64,000 nt of DNA from assembly GCA_902826095.1 (NCBI GenBank), contig CADEDN010000007.1, positions 62,001-126,000 of the forward strand. Direction: 5' to 3'. The translations under genes were made by a program, and so were the position numbers. The stretch is from an uncultured Alphaproteobacteria bacterium. Its GTDB lineage: Bacteria > Pseudomonadota > Alphaproteobacteria > Caulobacterales > Parvularculaceae. This document shows positions 4,054 to 36,344 of the stretch, in pieces. Position 1 is the first letter of the stretch. Every line of letters starts with the position of its first letter. The notes under the pieces were generated by a model. It was given only the letters and a program-made list of their open reading frames with translations. It ran no database searches and was not told the DNA's origin.

Positions 4054-4071
4054 TCCGGCGGTCTCGCTCGG

Positions 4072-4155
4072 ATGCTCCCCAACCCGAAATCGCATTTGGC
4101 GAAACTCAAGACCGGCGCCGAGCCGGTGATGACGCTCGCGGCGGAGGCGTTTTAG
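4072..4155 (+). pseudogene. Displaced duplicate of the acyl-CoA dehydrogenase 3' end
   Basis: This fragment encodes a 27-residue peptide beginning MLPNPKSHLAKLK and ending AAEAF plus a TAG stop, matching the last 27 codons of the gene ending at 2602, whose stop is TGA. About nine of 84 bases differ, and most of the codon differences are silent. It lies 18 bp downstream of the fic stop and 51 bp upstream of a good rho-independent terminator. This suggests it is the original gene tail with its original terminator, cut off by insertion of the fic islet. It is not expected to be translated. Confidence 0.85.
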
Positions 4156-8868: not shown

Positions 8869-9987
8869 ATGGCCCCCGCGCCGCCGCTTATGAAAACGGA
8901 CAACGCACGCATCGCTGCGGCGGCATCGGCCGCCATTATCATCGCCGCCGCCTTTGCGGCGATCGCGGCGGAGCCGGGCGGCGTCCTTGAAGACGTCCAG
9001 ATCGGCGAACGGGACCGGACCCTCAGGGTCGCCCTCATCTGCTCGGCGCGCTGTGCGATCGAGCCGGCTGAAGAGGGCGCGTTTCGCCTTGTCGGCGTCG
9101 CCGCCGACCTGGATGTCGACCTCGCCTCGCGGAGCGCGCTCGCAACCAGACTGACGATCAGGCGGTCTGGTCCTGCGAGCATCGTCAAGATCGCCGCCGA
9201 AAGGCCGCTCGCCGAAATTCGCCTGATTGAATGCGAGGCTGAAAGCGGGCCGGCGCCATGCATCGAATACGAGTTCGCCGACGATCGCGCCGCCGCTGCG
9301 CCAAACGGTTCGGCCCCGCTCGCCCCGGCGACAGCGCCGCAGCCGCCAAGCCTGCGCGACAACGCTAAAGGCGACGTCGAGGCGGCTGCGCCGACTGCAG
9401 AGGATATCCCGTTTGTCGGCGCGCTCATCGCGGCGCCGGCGCCCCATCCGGTGCTGCGCGATGAGCCGCAGGATGGGGTCGTCTATCTGCCGCAATTTGC
9501 GCCGCCTGAAAGACTGACGCCCGGGCAGGTCCCGCAAGGGTCGACCGCGAGGCTTCCGGTCAATGTCCCAGTCAATGTCGATGTCGGCCGCCCCGCGATG
9601 CTCGCCTCCGATCGCGCCGAAACGCTGGGGCAGGGCCCGGCGTTCGATTTTCGGGCGGAAGCGGTCGCCATCCTCGGCAAGTCCTTCGAGACCGGGGTTT
9701 GCGAAGGCGCCAAAGCGCGGCTTCAGGCCGACGCCTGGGCGCTCGATGCGATGACCGATGTCGCCTATTGCAAGGCGGCGGCCGGCGATTTTGAAGGCGC
9801 CGACGCCGATTTGTCGCGTCTCCTCGCCTATACGCCGGACAATTACGAAGCGCTGGTCGGGCGCGGCCTCATCGCCTTCTCGACGGGCGAGCGCCTCAAG
9901 GGCCAGGCGTTTTTTCAGGACGCGCTGAACGCCCTGCCGCCGATCAACGAATCCGACCGCATCGTCGATGCGATGGCGCGGAATTAG
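8869..9987 (+). CDS. Secreted hypothetical protein with TPR-like C-terminus
   Basis: The 372-residue product has a hydrophobic Ala/Ile-rich signal segment (about residues 15-34), a beta-rich N-terminal domain with two Cys pairs, and a long Pro/Ala linker. Its C-terminal region carries two TPR-like helix pairs (DAMTDVAYCKAAAGDFEGA and YEALVGRGLIAFSTGE). I do not recognise the family. The ATG at 8869 follows a strong GGGAGGG; an internal ATG at 8890 is possible. Its TAG stop forms the first bases of a telomere-like heptamer array, so the repeat begins at the end of the coding sequence. Confidence 0.7.
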   Translation: MAPAPPLMKTDNARIAAAASAAIIIAAAFAAIAAEPGGVLEDVQIGERDRTLRVALICSARCAIEPAEEGAFRLVGVAADLDVDLASRSALATRLTIRRSGPASIVKIAAERPLAEIRLIECEAESGPAPCIEYEFADDRAAAAPNGSAPLAPATAPQPPSLRDNAKGDVEAAAPTAEDIPFVGALIAAPAPHPVLRDEPQDGVVYLPQFAPPERLTPGQVPQGSTARLPVNVPVNVDVGRPAMLASDRAETLGQGPAFDFRAEAVAILGKSFETGVCEGAKARLQADAWALDAMTDVAYCKAAAGDFEGADADLSRLLAYTPDNYEALVGRGLIAFSTGERLKGQAFFQDALNALPPINESDRIVDAMARN

Positions 9988-10022
9988 GGGTTAGGGGTTA
10001 GGGATTAGGGGTTAGGGATTAG
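9984..10022 (+). repeat. Telomere-like heptamer array, left (TTAGGGR)n
   Basis: Five tandem heptamers TTAGGGG/TTAGGGA plus a partial unit begin within the stop codon of the gene ending at 9987. G-runs of 3-4 separated by TTA or ATTA are on the transcribed-sense strand, so the mRNA tail could fold a G-quadruplex. The array is matched by a longer inverted one 118 bp away. Confidence 0.92.
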
Positions 10023-10140
10023 TTGGCGTACGGACGCTTCCGTCGAGCGTCGCATGATTCCCTTTTCGAATTCTCCATTTCCCCGAACTCCCTAGAGGCT
10101 ATCAAAAAACGCACTTTCATCGTGCGCGGCCGTGATCCCT

Positions 10141-10224
10141 AATCCCCAATCCCCAATCCCCAATCCCCAATCCCCAATCCCTAATCCCCAGTCCCTAATC
10201 CCCAGTCCCTAATCCCCAGTCCCT
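10141..10224 (-). repeat. Telomere-like heptamer array, right (inverted, 12 units)
   Basis: Twelve contiguous heptamers (AATCCCC x5, then AATCCCT and alternating AATCCCC/AGTCCCT on the plus strand) end exactly at the kynureninase stop codon. On the minus strand, which is the sense of kynU, they read as G-runs. The array is inverted relative to 9984-10022, so the two could pair across a spacer of roughly 120 nt. Confidence 0.92.
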
Positions 10225-20753: not shown

Positions 20754-20870
20754 CTATTCCGCCGCCGCCAGCTGCTCCGCCTTGTTCAAATCGACCGACG
20801 CAAGCTGCGACACGCCGCGCTCGACCATCGTCACGCCGAAAAGCCGGCTCATGCGCGACATGGTGAGGGC
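20754..20870 (-). pseudogene. Displaced duplicate of the smc 3' end
   Basis: On the minus strand this encodes [19 protein letters not shown] and continues to a KAEQLAAAE end plus TAG, matching the last 38 codons of smc with two amino-acid differences. Fifty bases (20812-20861) are identical to 21907-21956, while the stop-proximal half has diverged, mostly silently. It has no start codon or upstream smc sequence. It lies 19 bp past the vapC stop, so VapBC is bracketed by two smc tails. The likely reading is that it is the old smc end cut off by an insertion. Confidence 0.88.
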
Positions 20871-21848: not shown

Positions 21849-24800
21849 TCACTCCGCCGCGGCGAGCTGTTCGGCCTTATGGAGGTCGACCGACACCAGC
21901 TGCGAAACGCCGCGCTCGACCATCGTCACGCCGAAAAGCCGGCTCATGCGCGACATCGTCAACGCGGAGTGGGTGATGATGAGAAAACGCGTCGCGGTTT
22001 CCTTCGCCATCTCTTCAAGGAGACGGCAGAAGCGCTCGGTGTTGGCGTCATCAAGCGGGGCGTCGACTTCGTCGAGCACGCAGACCGGCGCGGGGTTCGC
22101 CATGAACACCGCAAAGATGAGGGCGGTCGCCGTCAGCGCCTGTTCGCCGCCGGACATCAGCGACATCGAGGCGAGTTTCTTGCCGGGGGGCGAAGCGTAG
22201 ATTTCAAGGCCCGCTTCAAGCACGTCCTCGCTGTCGATCAGGCGCAATTCCGCCTGGCCGCCATTGAAGAGCCTGGTGAAGAGCGACGAGAAATTGCGAT
22301 TCACTGTTTCAAACGCCGCGTTAAGGCGCTCGCGCGCTTCGCGATTGAGGTTGCCGATCGCGGCGCGCAACTTCCGGATCGCGCCGTCGCAGTCCTCGCG
22401 CTCCCTTGTCAGCTCTTCAAGCCGCTGCGAGACTTCCTGCATCTCCTCGTCGGCGCGCAAATTGACGCCGCCGAGATTTTCGCGCTCGCGCTTGTAGCGA
22501 TCGAGCCTGGCGTCGATTTCAGAACGGGGGGGAAGTTCGGCGCCGACCTTGAATTCCGCGATCGCCGGAAGCTCTTCCGGCGTCGCATTGCAGGTCTCGT
22601 GCGCGAGCGCCGCCGCCTCCTCGACGCGGGCGATCGCGGCTTCGGACTGGGCCTCAAGCCGCGCGCGCGCTTCGCGCGCCTCGGCCGCCGCATTGTCGGC
22701 GATCCTGGCGGCGCGGTCGGCTTCCTGCGCGCGCGTCAGCGCGACGGCGAGGGCGTCGCCGGCGGCGCTGCGCGCCTTCTCCGCTTCAGCGATGTGGTCG
22801 AGCAATAGCGCGCGCTTTTCCTCGATCATCGCCGGCGCCTTAAGGGCCGTCTCTTGCGCGGACGTCGCGATTTCGTGGCGGCCGGCGATTTCAGCAAGGC
22901 GCGAAGCGGCGGTCTCGCCGCGCGTCGCCCAGACGCTCCGCTCGCGAATAATCTCGTCGATCCGGCGCGCGCGCATTTCAGCTTCGCGGGCGAGATCATT
23001 ATGCGCGGCGCGCGCTTCGGTCGCTTCGGCGCGCGCTCTCGCGGCGGCTTCCCGCGCGGCGCCGACGCCCTCGGCGATCAAGGAAGCGTCAGGAAGGCGG
23101 GTTTTCTCCTCGCGCGCGGCGCAAAGGTCGGCATTCGTTTCATCGCGATCGGCGGAGGCGAGGCCGAGCGCTTCGGCGATCGACGCAAGGCGCGTCGTCG
23201 CCCGCTCATGGTCGCGTTCAAGGTCGGCCTGTCGGGTGCGGGCAGCGTCAAGCGCGCGGCGCGCTTCGGCGAACAGCGAGCGGGCGTCGCGTTCGATCGA
23301 CTGGCTGCGCTGCAATTCGGCCTGGGCGCCGTCATGCGTCTGCGCGGCGGCGGCGGCGCGCTCTTTCGCGACGCCGAGATCTTTCTCCAGCTGATGCAGA
23401 CGGTTGCGCTGCTCCAGCCGAATGGCGGCGGCGGTCTTTGCTTCCGCGCGCGCGACAAAGCCGTCCCATCGCCAAAGGTCGCCCTTGCGCGACACCAGCC
23501 GCTGGCCGGGCGAAAGCGCCGCCGCGAGCCGCGCGCCCTGTTCTTCATCGACGACGCCGACCATCGCAAGGCGAAGGGCGAGCGCCGCCGGCGCCGCGAC
23601 GAAGCGCGCAAGCGGCGCAACGCCCGACGGAAGATCCGATGCGGCGGCTTCTCCCTGCCGGCCGCTCCAATAAGCGGGCGCTGAATGATCAAGCGCCGCG
23701 AAGAGATCGTCGCCAAGCGCGGCGGCGAGCGCGTTCTCATAGCCTGGTTCAACGTCGACCGCCTGGATGAGCGAGGGCCAGTCGCCGTCAGTCTGGGAAC
23801 TCAATACGCGGCGCAGCGCGTCGCACTCGGCGCGAATTTCCGAAAGGCTCTGATCCGCCTTGTGGCGCGGCTGTCGAACCGCGGTTTCGTTGGCTTCCGC
23901 CGCCGCGCGTTCTTCCTCGGCGCGGTGGAAAGCCGCTTCCGCCGCACGCGCGGCTTCCTCGGAAGCGACAAACCGCGCCGTCGCCGCTTCGAGCGCGTCA
24001 GCCTGTTCGCGCGTCGGTTCGATCCGGCCGCGCTCTTCGGCGAGCTGCGCAATCTGCGAAAGCGCTTTTTGCAGCCGTCTTTCCGCCGCTTCGATCGCGC
24101 CGGCGATCGCGCGCCGCCGCGCATCGACATCGGCCGCTTCAGCGCTTTTCTCTTCAAAGACCGTCTCGGCGGCCCGCACCGCATCGTTTGCGGCGTCAAG
24201 GCGGGCCCTCGCCGCTTCAATGCGGCTCTTTTCCGCCGCTTCGCGCTCCTTGAGGCCTTCAGCCTCGCGGTTGAGCGTCGCGACGGCGTCATCGGCGTCG
24301 GCGCGCAGCGCCTTTTCGCGGTCGAGATCGTCGGACAGGCGGTCGATTTCGGCGGCAAGCCGCCTGATCTCCGCATCGGCGCGCGCCGCCTCTTCATCGA
24401 GATTTTCGCGCGCGACGGTGAGGCGATGGAGGCCGGCGGCCGCCTTCGCTTCTTCAAGTCTCAGCGGATCGAGGGCTTCGTGCGCCCCGGCCTGCGCGGT
24501 CGAGGCGTTGGCGGCGACGCGCGCGGTCTCCTCGATCAGCGCGGCGATTTCCTGAAGATGCGAGCCGGCGGCGTCGCGCGCGTCGACCGCTTCCTTCCAC
24601 CTCAAAAAGGCGGCGGCGGCTTCGGCGCGGCGAATGTCGCCGGAGAGGTTGCGATAGCGCGTCGCCTGCCGCGCCTGACGGGCGAGCGCCTGCTTCTGGT
24701 TTTCAAGTTCGCCGATGACATCGTCGAGGCGGGAGAGGTTTTGCTCGGCGGCGCGAAGGCGCAGTTCCGCCTCGTGCCGGCGCGAATGGAGGCCGGTGAT

Positions 24801-29801: not shown

Positions 29802-29950
29802 CGCCTTTCCTCCCCCGTTTACGGGGGAGGTGGTCGCGAAGCGACCGGAGGGGGTGAGTCACAGCGACTTGGCTCGCCGATCGAACGCCCCCCTCAGTCA
29901 CGCCGCTTCACGCCGCGACAGCTCCCCCGCTTCGCGGGGGAGCAAAGGCG
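29802..29950. repeat. Repeat family A, copy 1 (149 bp, CGCCTTT/AAAGGCG ends)
   Basis: The element begins 5 bp after the dipeptidase-like stop. It has 7-bp terminal inverted repeats CGCCTTT/AAAGGCG and two internal hairpins built on CTCCCCCG...CGGGGGAG, plus the phrase CCCCCTCAGTCACG. The rest of this 481-bp gene-free region (29797-30277) holds a 45-bp segment shared with 31987-32030 (GGCTGGTTATCCGA) and the 135-bp element at 30058. Confidence 0.85.
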
Positions 29951-30057
29951 GAGTATCGCTGGCTGGTTATCCGAGGGCGGATCGGTTCTGAGAAGAACTG
30001 ATACCAAGTTGCACTGAGTCCAACTCATTCGGCGAGGATCCCTTCTGCTTTTGAAAG

Positions 30058-30192
30058 TGTCATCCCGGGCGCGCTGCAACACGTAGTGTTGCGGCGCAGA
30101 CCCGGGACGGCGTGCAGCCGAGGGCCCGAAACTGCGCGGGATCCCGGGTCTGCGCAGCGGCATTGTCATGCCGCAGCGCGCCCGGGATGACA
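30058..30192. repeat. 135-bp MITE-like element, copy 1 (20-bp perfect terminal inverted repeats)
   Basis: The ends TGTCATCCCGGGCGCGCTGC and its exact reverse complement bracket 95 bp. Inside is a CAACAC...GTGTTG hairpin and CGCAGACCCGGGA / TCCCGGGTCTGCG arms. A second copy of the same 135-bp length lies at 34457-34591. It has no coding capacity. It lies between convergent genes. Confidence 0.9.
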
Positions 30193-31835: not shown

Positions 31836-31986
31836 GTCCCCCTCAGTCACGCTTCGCGCGTCAGCTCCCCCGCCAGCGCAGGGCGATCGCAGATGGTGCG
31901 CCCCCCTCTCCCGCTTGCGGGAGAGGGCAGGGTGAGGGGGCGTGAGGCATGCGCTTTGCTCCCCGCTTCACGGAGGATCAAAGGCG
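31836..31986. repeat. Repeat family A-related cluster upstream of the carboxyltransferase
   Basis: The 266-bp gap 31793-32058 is mostly repeats. CCCCCTCAGTCACG plus a CTCCCCCG hairpin is followed by the CCCTCTCCCGCTTGCGGGAGA palindrome of the mutY-insert type. It ends in ATCAAAGGCG and then the GGCTGGTTATCCGA segment also found at 29957. It looks like a degenerate composite of family A. No gene is seen in the gap. Confidence 0.7.
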
Positions 31987-32058
31987 AACCGTCGCTGGCT
32001 GGTTATCCGAAGGCGGATCGGTCTTTCGAGGGCGTTGTCAGCGACGCAGACGGGGGGG

Positions 32059-32904
32059 TCAATCAATAAAATCCAGCCCCAGATCGAGGCTCGGCGCCGA
32101 ATGGGTGATCGCGCCCGAGGAGATGACGTCGACGCCGGTTTTGGCGATCGCGCCGACGCTGTCGAGGGTGACGCCGCCCGAGGCTTCAAGGATCGCGCGG
32201 CCCTTGTTGAGCGCGACGGCGAGGCGAAGATCGTCCAAGGACATGTTGTCGAGAAGGATGATGCGCGCGCCGTGTTCGAGCGCTTCTTCCATCTGTTCGA
32301 GGGTTTCAACTTCAATCTCGATCGCGGTCATGTGGCCGACGGCTTCTTTCGCGGCGCGCATCGCTTCGGCGACGCCGCCGGCGGCGACGATGTGGTTGTC
32401 TTTGATCATCACCGCGTCATAGAGGCCGAAACGGTGATTGACGCCGCCGCCGCAGCGGACCGCGTATTTTTCAAAGGCTCGAATGCCTGGCGTCGTCTTC
32501 CGCGTGCAGGCGATTTTCGCGCGCGTGCCGGCGACAGCTTCGACATAATGCGCGGTCAATGTCGCGACCCCTGAAAGCCGGCCGAGAAAATTCAGCGCCA
32601 CGCGCTCCGCGGTCAAGATGCCGCGCGCCGGCCCTTCGATCCGCATCAATGCGTCGCCGTCGTCGACGCGCGCGCCGTCGCCATTTTGGATTTTCACCTC
32701 GATGTCGCGATCGACAAGCCGGAAGGCGGCGAGCGCGAGATCAACGCCGGCGACGACGCCGGGGCGGCGGGAAGACAAGGTCGCGCGGCTCTCGGCGTTC
32801 GCCGGGATGCAGGCGGCGCTCGTTATGTCGCCGGCGTCGCCAAGGTCCTCGGCGAGCGCGCGTTTGACCGCGTCCTCGATCAAAAATGCCGGAAGCCGCG
32901 TCAT
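32059..32904 (-). CDS. nadC: Nicotinate-nucleotide pyrophosphorylase (carboxylating)
   Basis: The 281-residue product is quinolinate phosphoribosyltransferase, forming nicotinate mononucleotide from quinolinate and PRPP. It shows LAEDLGDAGDITSAACIP, ERVALNFLGRLSGVATLT, CTRKTTPGIRAFEKYAV and KDNHI, with a C-terminal LEASGGVTLDSVGA. Its ATG overlaps the nadB stop (ATGA), giving tight coupling. It completes the nadA-orf90-nadB-nadC set for de novo NAD synthesis from aspartate. Confidence 0.96.
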   Translation of the reverse strand: MTRLPAFLIEDAVKRALAEDLGDAGDITSAACIPANAESRATLSSRRPGVVAGVDLALAAFRLVDRDIEVKIQNGDGARVDDGDALMRIEGPARGILTAERVALNFLGRLSGVATLTAHYVEAVAGTRAKIACTRKTTPGIRAFEKYAVRCGGGVNHRFGLYDAVMIKDNHIVAAGGVAEAMRAAKEAVGHMTAIEIEVETLEQMEEALEHGARIILLDNMSLDDLRLAVALNKGRAILEASGGVTLDSVGAIAKTGVDVISSGAITHSAPSLDLGLDFID

Positions 32905-34442
32905 GTCAATTCTTCCTCCCATTCGAGGTCGGCGGTTTCAGCAAGGCAGATTTCGGTGTGCATCGGTTCGTCGTCGGCTTGCGGAAAGTCGGTGCGGGTG
33001 TGGCCGCCGCGGCTTTCTTCCCGCATCAAGGCGCCTTGCGCGATCAGCTCCGCCGAGGCGAGCGCGCTTTTTAGCCCGCTCGTCATCAGCGGACTTTGAT
33101 TGAGATCATCAATCGTCTCAATGACGGCGGTCAGCGATTTCTCCGAGCGCAAAAGCGCGGCGCCTTTCGACATCGCCTTGCGGAGTTTCATCATCAAGGT
33201 CGGCTCGGCGGGTTTTGGCGCGAGCGCGAAGCGGTCCTCGGGCGCGGCGGCGTTCTTGCGCGGCGCAAGCCGCGCGGCTCTCAGCCGCTCGCCGATCGCC
33301 GCGCCGAAGACGACCGCCTCAAGGAGGGAATTCGAGGCGAGGCGATTGGCGCCGTGAACGCCGGTCGAGGCGACTTCGCCGACGGCGGAAAGCCCGTCGA
33401 GCGAGGCGCGGCCTTGCATGTCGGTCATGACGCCGCCCATGAGGTAATGCGCGGCCGGCGCGACCGGCATCGGGCTTGTGCGCGGATCAACGCCGTTGCG
33501 CTGACAGGCGGCGAAGACGGTCGGAAACTTCGCCGGGAACGCAGGCCCGATATGGCGCGCGTCAAGAAAGGCGCCGCGCTTTGCTTTCCGCTCGGCTTCG
33601 ACCGCTCTTGCGACGACGTCGCGCGGGGCGAGATCGCGGTCCTGGTGGTATTTCTGCATGAAGGGCTTGCCGTCGGCGTTGACGAGAACCGCGCCGTCGC
33701 CGCGCAAGGCTTCCGTCGCCAGCGGCGCAGGGTCCTCGCCGAAATCAAGCGCGGTCGGATGGAACTGCACGAATTCAGGATCGCGGATGACGGCGCCCGC
33801 GCGCGCCGCGAAAGCAAGGCCGTGTCCCTGCGCGGGTTTCGGGTTCGTCGTCACCGCATAGAGCCCGCCGAGCCCGCCGGTCGCGAGCACGGTCTCGGAC
33901 GCCTCCATGAGGACGCGCTCGCCGCGGTCGACGATGAAAGCGAGAACGCCGGCGACAGCGCCCTCGTCGTCGATCAGCAAATCCTCGACAACGACGCGTT
34001 CGAGAATTTCAATATGCGGCGCTTTCCTCGCAGCGTCGATGAGGGCGCGCATGATCTCCGCGCCCGCCTGATCGCCGGTCGCGTGGACGATGCGATGGCG
34101 GCAATGCGCGGCCTCGCGGCCGAGGATGTAATGTCCGGTCTCGTCGCGGTCGAATTTGACGCCGATCCGCGCGAGATCCTCGACCGCTTCAGCGCCGCCG
34201 AAGGCGAGAACGCGCGCAGCTTCAGGATCGACGAGGCCGGCGCCCGCCTCCATCGTGTCGGCGAAGTGAAGGTTCGGCGAATCATTCTCCCCGATCGCCG
34301 CCGCCATCCCGCCTTGCGCCCATGCGCTCGAAGCGTCCGCGCCCAGCGGGCGCGCGGTGATGACAGTCACAGGCCGGGGCGCGAGCTTCAGCGCCGTGTA
34401 GAGGCCCGCGACGCCCGCGCCGATGATGAGGATCGTGGTCAT
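32901..34442 (-). CDS. nadB: L-aspartate oxidase
   Basis: The 513-residue product has the N-terminal FAD dinucleotide-binding motif ILIIGAGVAGLY, SAWAQGGMAAAIGE, HRIVHATGDQAG, the succinate-dehydrogenase-like active-site stretch and VASTGVHGANRLASNSLLEAVVFG. It oxidises aspartate to iminoaspartate for NadA. The start at 34442 matches family N-termini. Two short relict copies of this start lie upstream at 34744 and 34950, separated by repeat elements, and the latter is 13 bp past the orf90 stop. The gene therefore appears to have been displaced about 500 bp from its operon position. Confidence 0.95.
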   Translation of the reverse strand: MTTILIIGAGVAGLYTALKLAPRPVTVITARPLGADASSAWAQGGMAAAIGENDSPNLHFADTMEAGAGLVDPEAARVLAFGGAEAVEDLARIGVKFDRDETGHYILGREAAHCRHRIVHATGDQAGAEIMRALIDAARKAPHIEILERVVVEDLLIDDEGAVAGVLAFIVDRGERVLMEASETVLATGGLGGLYAVTTNPKPAQGHGLAFAARAGAVIRDPEFVQFHPTALDFGEDPAPLATEALRGDGAVLVNADGKPFMQKYHQDRDLAPRDVVARAVEAERKAKRGAFLDARHIGPAFPAKFPTVFAACQRNGVDPRTSPMPVAPAAHYLMGGVMTDMQGRASLDGLSAVGEVASTGVHGANRLASNSLLEAVVFGAAIGERLRAARLAPRKNAAAPEDRFALAPKPAEPTLMMKLRKAMSKGAALLRSEKSLTAVIETIDDLNQSPLMTSGLKSALASAELIAQGALMREESRGGHTRTDFPQADDEPMHTEICLAETADLEWEEELT

Positions 34443-34456
34443 GCGGCCGACACGCT

Positions 34457-34591
34457 TGTCATCCCGCGCGCGCCGCAACACGAAGTGTTGCTGCGCAGAC
34501 GCGGGATCCGTCGCAGCTGAAGAGTTCTTGCGGCACGGGATCCCGCGTCTGCGGCGCACCGCTGCGCGCTGCGCCGCGCGCGGGATGACAA
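34457..34591. repeat. 135-bp MITE-like element, copy 2
   Basis: Terminal inverted repeats of 17 perfect bases (TTGTCATCCCGCGCGCG and complement) delimit an element of the same length and internal plan as 30058-30192, including the CAACAC/GTGTTG hairpin and GGATCC blocks. It begins 14 bp upstream of the nadB start, within the nad operon leader. Transcripts through it would fold into a long hairpin next to the nadB initiation region. Confidence 0.88.
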
Positions 34592-34612
34592 GACAAGTTC
34601 GAGCGGGAAAAA

Positions 34613-34713
34613 CGCCCCCTCAGTCACGCTTCGCGTGACAGCTCCCCCCTGCGCGCATTGCGCGCAATACTGCAAATCGCGCCTTCGGCGCGGGGCGGGG
34701 GAGCAAAGTCGCG
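34613..34713. repeat. Repeat family A, partial copy in the nad operon
   Basis: CGCCCCCTCAGTCACGC is followed by a GCTCCCCC hairpin half and the GGGGGAGCAAAG end. It is interrupted by a GCGCGCATTGCGCGC palindrome. It directly adjoins the first relict nadB start (34721-34744). Confidence 0.7.
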
Positions 34714-34720
34714 TTTCAAA

Positions 34721-34744
34721 GATGATGAGGATCGAGGATGTCAT
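34721..34744 (-). pseudogene. Relict nadB start (MTSSILII)
   Basis: On the minus strand an ATG at 34744 reads M-T-S-S-I-L-I-I before running into a family A repeat. The real nadB begins M-T-T-I-L-I-I-G-A. The shared block ATCCTCATCATC is identical. The fragment is only 24 bp, so homology rests on its agreement with both the real start and the second relict at 34950. Confidence 0.6.
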
Positions 34745-34754
34745 GCGCGGCATT

Positions 34755-34892
34755 GCTTTCTTCCCCCGCGACAGCGGGGGAAGTGTCGGCGAAGCCGACG
34801 AAGGGGGCTCTCTCCGCGAGAGCGGCCCTTGCGGCGGGAGCGCGCCCCCTCAGTCACGCTGCGCGCGACAGCTCCCCCGCAAGCGGGGGAGC
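34755..34892. repeat. Repeat family A copy between two relict nadB starts
   Basis: The element runs from GCTTTCTTCCCCCG to CGGGGGAGCGG with CCCCCTCAGTCACG inside, in the same orientation as copies 29802 and 40041. It is bracketed by GATGATGAGGAT repeats (34721 and 34927) that are the complement of the nadB 5' coding sequence. The remaining bases of the 520-bp gene-free stretch 34443-34962 hold only linkers. Confidence 0.8.
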
Positions 34893-34920
34893 GGAGATGA
34901 TGCGCTCGCCCTGGCTCCGT

Positions 34921-34950
34921 TGCGCCGATGATGAGGATGGGGGAGGTCAT
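34921..34950 (-). pseudogene. Relict nadB start (MTSPILIIGA), probable ancestral position
   Basis: On the minus strand an ATG at 34950 encodes M-T-S-P-I-L-I-I-G-A, matching the opening of NadB, and then diverges into repeat sequence. It lies 12 bp after the orf90 stop, which is normal operon spacing. This suggests nadB once started here before repeats were inserted after codon 10 and a complete copy was regenerated downstream. Confidence 0.65.
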
Positions 34951-34962
34951 TTTCGGCTGCAG

Positions 34963-35235
34963 CTAGGAACGGTGACGTCGATGGCGACTGGAAATCAGGT
35001 CATGGAAACTTCGTATCGAGACATACAAGCCAGCGACTCCCAACGCCGGCAACACGAGGCCTTTCATCATCAACGGGAAATTCGCTTGAAAGAGTTTGCA
35101 GATTGCGCTGCCAGACGGCGGTGAGCCTGCGAGATCGCCGGAACAACCCATTACGAGCGGCGGCAACATAAGCGCAATCACCAGCACGAATAGTGCAACA
35201 GCAATCGCGTCTACTAATTTCAGAATTGACTTCAC
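34963..35235 (-). CDS. Small membrane protein coupled to nadA (orf90)
   Basis: The 90-residue product has two hydrophobic segments (about residues 8-28 and 55-74) flanking a hydrophilic loop with two Cys, and a basic C-terminus (SSRHRRHRS). I do not recognise the family. Its GTG start overlaps the nadA stop (GTGA), which strongly implies it is translated and part of the nad operon, between nadA and nadB. A role in NAD-precursor handling or membrane association of NadA/NadB is only a guess. Confidence 0.65.
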
Positions 35236-36344
35236 GCCCGCGCCTCGACCGCCAGCACCTGCGGCGCTTTCGCATGCGTGTACATCGACTGGCGCGTCAG
35301 GGGGAGCGCGATCATCCGCTCGATCGCCGCGCGGGCCCGCGTTGAAATTTCCGGATCAATGAGAATTTCATGCTGCATCGTCTGCAGCGAGCGCAAAATC
35401 TTCGTCAGGGTGATCCGCTTCATGTGCGGGCAGAGATTGCAGGGCCGGACGAAATTCACCTTCGGATTTTCGAGGCTGACATTGTCCGACATCGAGCATT
35501 CGGTGATGAGAACGACCTTGTCCGGCTGGTGGCGCTTGACGAAATTCGACATGCCGCTGGTCGAGCCGGCGAAATCGGCTTCGGCGAGAACGTCGGGCGG
35601 GCATTCGGGATGCGCGAGCACGATGATTCCGGGATTTCCATCGCGCAATTCGCGGATGTCGTCCACGGTGAAACGCTCATGGACTTCGCAAGCGCCCGCC
35701 CAGGTGACGATCTTCACATCCGTCATCGCCGCGACGTTCTTTGCAAGATACTGGTCGGGGATCAAGATGACGATATCCGAATTCCATTCCTTCGCCGCCC
35801 ATTCGACGATCTCGACCGCGTTCGACGAGGTGCAGCAGATGTCGGTCTCGGCTTTGACGTCGGCTGACGTATTCACATAGGTGACGACCGGCGCCCCCTT
35901 ATATTTCTGTTTCATGAGGCGCACGTCGGCGCCGGTGATCGACGAGGCGAGCGAGCAGCCGGCCGCCAGGTCGGGGATGAGGACGGTTTTTTCCGGGCAG
36001 AGAATTTTCGACGTCTCGGCCATGAAATGAACGCCCGCCTGGACGATCACTTTCGCGTCCGTCGCCGCCGCCTGCTTGGCGAGCTGCAAACTGTCGCCGG
36101 CGAAATCGCCGACGCCGAAATAGATTTCCGGCGTCATGTAATTGTGGGCGAGGATGACCGCGTTCTTCTCGCGCTTGAGGTCGTTGATCGCGGCGATCAA
36201 AGGCGCGTGGAGGCGCCATTCGGCCGGCGTGATCAGCTTCTCGACTTTTGCGTAGAGAGCGTCCGTCTTCGCCGCGACTTCGGCTGTGTAGGGGAGATCG
36301 CCCGCCTTCGCCGGTTTGCTGCGCGCAAATTCCAGTATGGTCAT
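35232..36344 (-). CDS. nadA: Quinolinate synthase
   Basis: The 370-residue product condenses iminoaspartate with dihydroxyacetone phosphate to quinolinate on a [4Fe-4S] cluster. It shows [49 protein letters not shown] (first cluster Cys), [19 protein letters not shown] and the late [15 protein letters not shown]. The ATG at 36344 follows GGGAGA. It is the first gene of the operon nadA-orf90-nadB-nadC, with a palindromic operator candidate immediately upstream. Confidence 0.96.

Follow-up and report, generated by a model that had tools for sequence, protein, structure and literature searches.

The nadB gene of the Parvularculaceae bacterium studied here is preceded by two relict copies of its own start. 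Three ATGs on the minus strand (34950, 34744 and 34442) open MTSPILIIGA, MTSSILIIFE and MTTILIIGAGVAG (working-start protein MTTILIIGA), respectively, and, judged by their sequences, relicts 1 and 2 are true nadB starts, that is, 5′ ends duplicated beyond what chance would give. The window, meaning the whole 64-kb stretch of DNA that was analysed, belongs to a 58-contig draft assembly of a 3.79-Mb genome. The order of genes on the minus strand is nadA, nadB, nadC, the last being identified by position and inspection only. In most relatives nadA and nadB are neighbours separated by spacers of usually 30–300 nt. The spacer in the window genome is 790 nt long, and the features of the junction are as follows.

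35232–36344, minus strand: nadA (quinolinate synthase), operon partner upstream; Pfam NadA, E = 4e-109; adjacent to nadB in most relatives
34963–35235, minus strand: orf90, a membrane-like orphan ORF of 90 aa that overlaps the nadA stop
34921–34950, minus strand: relict nadB start 1, MTSPILIIGA, 12 nt after orf90; exact pattern match, 26/30 identical to the nadB start of relative G001
34761–34892, minus strand: repeat A1, full-length family A element of 132 bp with hairpins; reciprocal best match to the A element upstream of G001 nadB (86%); fold z = −5.0
34721–34744, minus strand: relict nadB start 2, MTSSILII, at the position orthologous to the G001 nadB start; exact pattern match, with G001 homology running from A1 to the relict-2 ATG
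about 34613–34708, minus strand: repeat A2, a family A element reduced to its left half (no right half on inspection), the first hairpin being enlarged; a 36-bp stretch agrees with A1 at 94%
34455–34592, minus strand: repeat B, a 138-bp palindrome TGTCATCCCG...CGGGATGACA; 55-nt arms 85% complementary, dispersed copies, RNA fold z = −11.1
32901–34442, minus strand: nadB (L-aspartate oxidase), the working gene, start MTTILIIGAGVAG; Pfam FAD_binding_2, 2.5e-78; 81–82% identity to G001 and G004 over the whole length

The three nadB starts

The third ATG (34442) is the working start of nadB, since the protein alignments with most of 60 relatives start at residues 1–5. The three starts make up a family of direct repeats (D1; 22 nt, 77–91% to the reference copy), and copies 1 and 2 match at 75% over 40 nt (D3). 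The nadB start reads MTSPI[L/I]IVGA in G001, G004 (where the codon is TTG) and G008, and is mostly of the ..SDILIIGA form in other genera. Relict 1 has the Ser-Pro that was lost from the working nadB and keeps the form of G001, G004 and G008 better than the working gene does; by this comparison it is the least changed of the starts. The sequence CGATCCTCATCATC is common to relict 2 and the working start and is absent from relict 1, G001, G004 and G008. The relicts are taken as real nadB starts because the starts of relatives match them, because relict 1 possesses the Ser-Pro, and because CGATCCTCATCATC is shared.

One might suspect that the similarity is accidental, or that coding composition produces it in a GC-rich spacer, since ILII is often spelled ATCCTCATCATC in the nadB family. 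However, the relict pattern ATGACNTCNNNNATCCTCATCATC has two exact matches in the whole genome, both of them the relicts and both within 510 bp of the true nadB start, all other matches carrying 3 mismatches. Besides, the window locus is the only one among 96 nadB loci scanned with a start-like block in the nadB spacer (z = 7.1; next 3.4), a comparable start copy being absent from the 95 other alphaproteobacterial loci. This refutes chance, whose remaining probability is practically negligible, and demonstrates both the homology of the three starts and their restriction to the window genome. The sequence-only reading had recognised the three homologous starts, the 12 bp between the end of orf90 (34963) and the first ATG, and the filling of the intervals by repeats (mapped here as A1, A2 and the 138-bp B) with the working start downstream, and on all these points it is borne out. 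It had also held that relatives with a long spacer lacking the blocks would make the matches coincidental. Such spacers do occur in G001 and G008, but they make the matches specific to the window genome rather than coincidental.

Relative G004 presents a superficially similar picture. Its assembly breaks inside the nadB 5′ end (at the ends of L039 and L040), leaving two differing starts. The second nadB 5′ fragment was considered as a natural duplication, a reading that was dismissed because each piece is at the end of a contig and the fragment is similar to G008 nadB. The pair of starts in G004 is likely the result of strain mixing. An assembly artefact in which alleles of different strains were joined is conceivable for the window genome as well, given the exact place of the break in G004 and the draft state of the window assembly. 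Nevertheless, the relicts are embedded in one 141-kb contig, between orf90 and nadB, and the reported contamination is 0.07%, which makes this explanation very improbable.

Translational coupling through ATGA overlaps that would chain ORF1, ORF2 and nadB was considered and set aside as weak; other frames of the spacer are also long open by composition. The product of orf90 has no Pfam match, and no convincing relative of it was found in 398 genomes of the order or in plasmids. A weak match in G062 was dropped, as it contains a stop and its 3.2-kb neighbourhood has neither nadA nor nadB. The Rfam search of the spacer gave no match at the gathering score.

Repeat families and the shared position of A1

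The repeats fall into two separate families, A and B, both short, hairpin-forming and dispersed, and both lacking an Rfam match. The form of family A is CTTTGCTCCCCCG...GGGGGAG-CTGTC...GACTGAGGGGG...CCCCCG...GGGGGA[AG]GAAAG, with a length of 94–134 bp in clean cases. B palindromes at 30058–30192 and in L076, L080 and L083 are nested in a longer inverted repeat (GGGACCTCTTCAAAGGAGAAAACCG ... CTTTCAAAAGCAGAAGGGATCCTCG), forming a composite element. A 62-bp repeat (29925–29986 and 31961–32022; 87%) starts in the end of family A and continues into GGCTGGTTATCCGA.GGCGGATCGGT, a dispersed motif linked to family A.

Among 31 candidates in G001, the best match of A1 is the A element located directly upstream of G001 nadB, and the match is reciprocal (86.4%, next 84.8%). 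The alignment spans exactly the region from the left edge of A1 to the relict-2 ATG, which establishes that the position of A1 is shared. The core pattern of family A, absent from five other relatives, is matched 10 times in the window genome and 11 times in G001; an independent insertion at the shared site is therefore unlikely. Since the match is reciprocal and the alignment ends at the relict-2 ATG, A1 was probably in place before the window genome and G001 split, with nadB then starting at the present relict 2. G001 is the only sequenced relative carrying A1.

No homology to G001 was found further left: orf90 and relict 1 are unique to the window genome, and the upstream side of A1 in G001 consists of other repeats and an ORF fragment. 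As the homology stops exactly at the left edge of A1, relict 1 and orf90 were apparently added later, unless the segment was lost in G001. The sequence-only reading, according to which repeats entered the nadB 5′ end and a working start was re-formed downstream, thus stands in part: the relicts are real and the start now lies downstream, but A1 was not obviously inserted at relict 1. Its expectation of relatives with nadB starting at the position of 34950 found no counterpart, no relative having orf90 and G001 nadB starting at the relict-2 position. Upstream of nadB in G001 (L010), a truncated ORF start, MADLNLMLTKNDVEQIIRPLL, passes straight into a copy of family A, which gives the impression that A interrupted the start of another gene.

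For 21 A records, A1 among them and corresponding to about 18 distinct elements, and for 11 B elements, the flanks were compared with mismatched pairs, a comparison that is blind to duplications under about 10 bp. Within this range, long flanking duplications at the other A elements and at 10 other B elements did not exceed the control pairs. The two flanks of A1 reach 16.5 when scored against one another, with a maximum of 12 among 420 mismatched pairs, a result that also speaks against a chance likeness of the starts. A1 at nadB is the only element compared that is bordered by clear direct repeats. These repeats therefore do not habitually produce long target duplications, and the idea that both families duplicate their target sites in general was rejected.

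This bears on a serial insertion of A1 and then A2/B into the nadB start, each duplicating 24–40 bp and leaving the working start downstream. Such a course, which is the sequence-only reading carried furthest, would suit the alternating order of starts and repeats and the graded starts MTSP, MTSS and MTT, and palindromic repeats with variable duplications of 3–26 bp do exist (YPAL/RU-2, PMC2229807). Apart from the control-level flanks elsewhere, it is at odds with the start copies not abutting the ends of A1 (29 and about 11 nt lie between them) and with the presence of A1 at the same place in G001 without relict 1. We consider serial insertion rather unlikely. The broader proposal of a palindromic family that copies about 35–40 bp, start codon included, when it enters a gene start, and in this way renews the 5′ end again and again and leaves dead starts as layers, appears doubtful.

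A proposed two-step history of the junction

The history tentatively favoured here, to which we would give not quite an even chance, is that relict 1 came with an orf90 cassette and relict 2 was displaced by A2/B with a short local duplication. The ancestor common with G001 would have had nadA, then A1, then nadB starting at the present relict 2. In the first step, a segment with orf90 and the opening codons of a second nadB allele would have been joined between nadA and A1, giving rise to relict 1; the likeliest route would be homologous recombination on the nadA side and illegitimate recombination on the other (HFIR). Relict 1 and orf90 are read as one later arrival because nothing left of A1 is common to G001 and because orf90 is an orphan; the normal operon spacing of 12 nt between them also speaks for this history. 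In the second step, A2 and B would have come in just within the resident nadB, and about 35–40 bp around the start codon would have been duplicated locally; relict 2 would thereby have been severed from the gene, which kept a working start further downstream. The derived CGATCCTCATCATC is common to relict 2 and the working start, which are identical at 19/21 positions, compared with 18/24 for relict 2 and G001, and a local duplication is favoured for the second step on this account.

Several observations tell against the two-step history. The import has no independent trace: no mosaic pattern was seen in nadA, which is closest to G001 in most 120-nt windows. G001 could have lost relict 1, in which case the whole junction may stem from serial insertion. 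Relict 1 is nearer to the working start (24/27) than any relative is (best 23/27), which would permit a purely local origin of all copies. The last point belongs to another explanation, in which replication slippage or a template switch at the hairpin repeats would have duplicated the nadB 5′ end locally and in tandem, with neither a foreign allele nor transposition. The mutual closeness of the three copies, about equal to or above their closeness to relatives, fits it, as do the strongly folding repeats between the copies; it leaves unexplained, however, both the operon spacing of orf90 to relict 1 and the stop of G001 homology at the left edge of A1. On balance, such an origin seems unlikely. 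In the two-step history, the import, the duplication at the start codon and the succession of the two are inferred from these comparisons; the start blocks, at 24–30 nt, are too short for a codon-position test.

Gene-end duplications and known systems

Two further duplications of gene ends occur in the same window. The 91 nt that end an acyl-CoA dehydrogenase gene are repeated after fic (2510–2600 and 4063–4153; 89%), and the last 107 nt of smc are repeated after the PIN-toxin gene of a vapBC-like pair (21853–21959 and 20758–20864; 88%). Third codon positions account for 12 of 16 differences between the smc copies and 8 of 12 in the other pair, together 20 of 28 (p = 4e-5 against one third). 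In G001 the dehydrogenase gene is followed, without fic, by the gene that follows the relict in the window, which corresponds to an empty site. The excess at third positions indicates that the copies of both pairs diverged as working genes in different lineages, and points to the import of each cassette with a foreign gene end. The likeness of the nadB junction to these loci, drawn in the sequence-only reading, thus holds as far as the existence of the 3′-end duplications goes, but they were not regenerated in place. Since the fic and vapBC cassettes are bordered by gene-end copies, import with flanking gene ends occurs near nadB, a point in favour of the two-step history. Arrays of telomere-like heptamers (TTAGGGG and the near-complement ATCCCCA) were also observed in the window, at 9983–10022 and 10135–10224; they are in opposite orientation, about 110 bp apart, and adjoin a gene end.

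HFIR (homology-facilitated illegitimate recombination), in which recombination is homologous on one side and ends in an illegitimate junction on the other, is known from S. pneumoniae, A. baylyi and P. stutzeri and, rarely, from E. coli; one-sided homology can add a cassette beside a conserved gene and leave partial gene copies (PMC3240628), as it would have done here. At nadA-nadB the route is putative: orf90 is an orphan, but the nadA side has no mosaic signature. HFIR has also been proposed for the arrays of displaced gene remnants in V. cholerae, the T6SS/Rhs orphan arrays, where successive insertions shift older gene ends along the chromosome (PMC5361080). The resemblance to the nadB junction lies in this displacement into an array. 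In V. cholerae, however, what is preserved are 3′ ends or entire immunity genes, with a possible use, whereas at nadB 24–30 nt of a 5′ end are kept in a biosynthetic operon, with no evident use. Families A and B, being short, hairpin-forming and dispersed, resemble small palindromic mobile repeats (MITE-like; YPAL/RU-2, RPE, CIR; PMC2229807), but differ from YPAL/RU-2, which shows variable target duplications, in that they have no general target duplication. HFIR or the insertion of palindromic repeats could each have made parts of the locus, and no new kind of system is needed for the nadA-nadB junction.

For annotation, the junction is a warning: what look like hypothetical ORFs from 34950 and from 34744 are start codons that have been displaced and now read into repeats. 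It is also a readable record of a conserved biosynthetic gene that works on while its start moves 0.5 kb downstream. Considered alongside the fic and vapBC duplications of the 64-kb window, the junction suggests frequent gain of cassettes at gene ends in this lineage, with gene-end relicts left behind that can be counted and tested.
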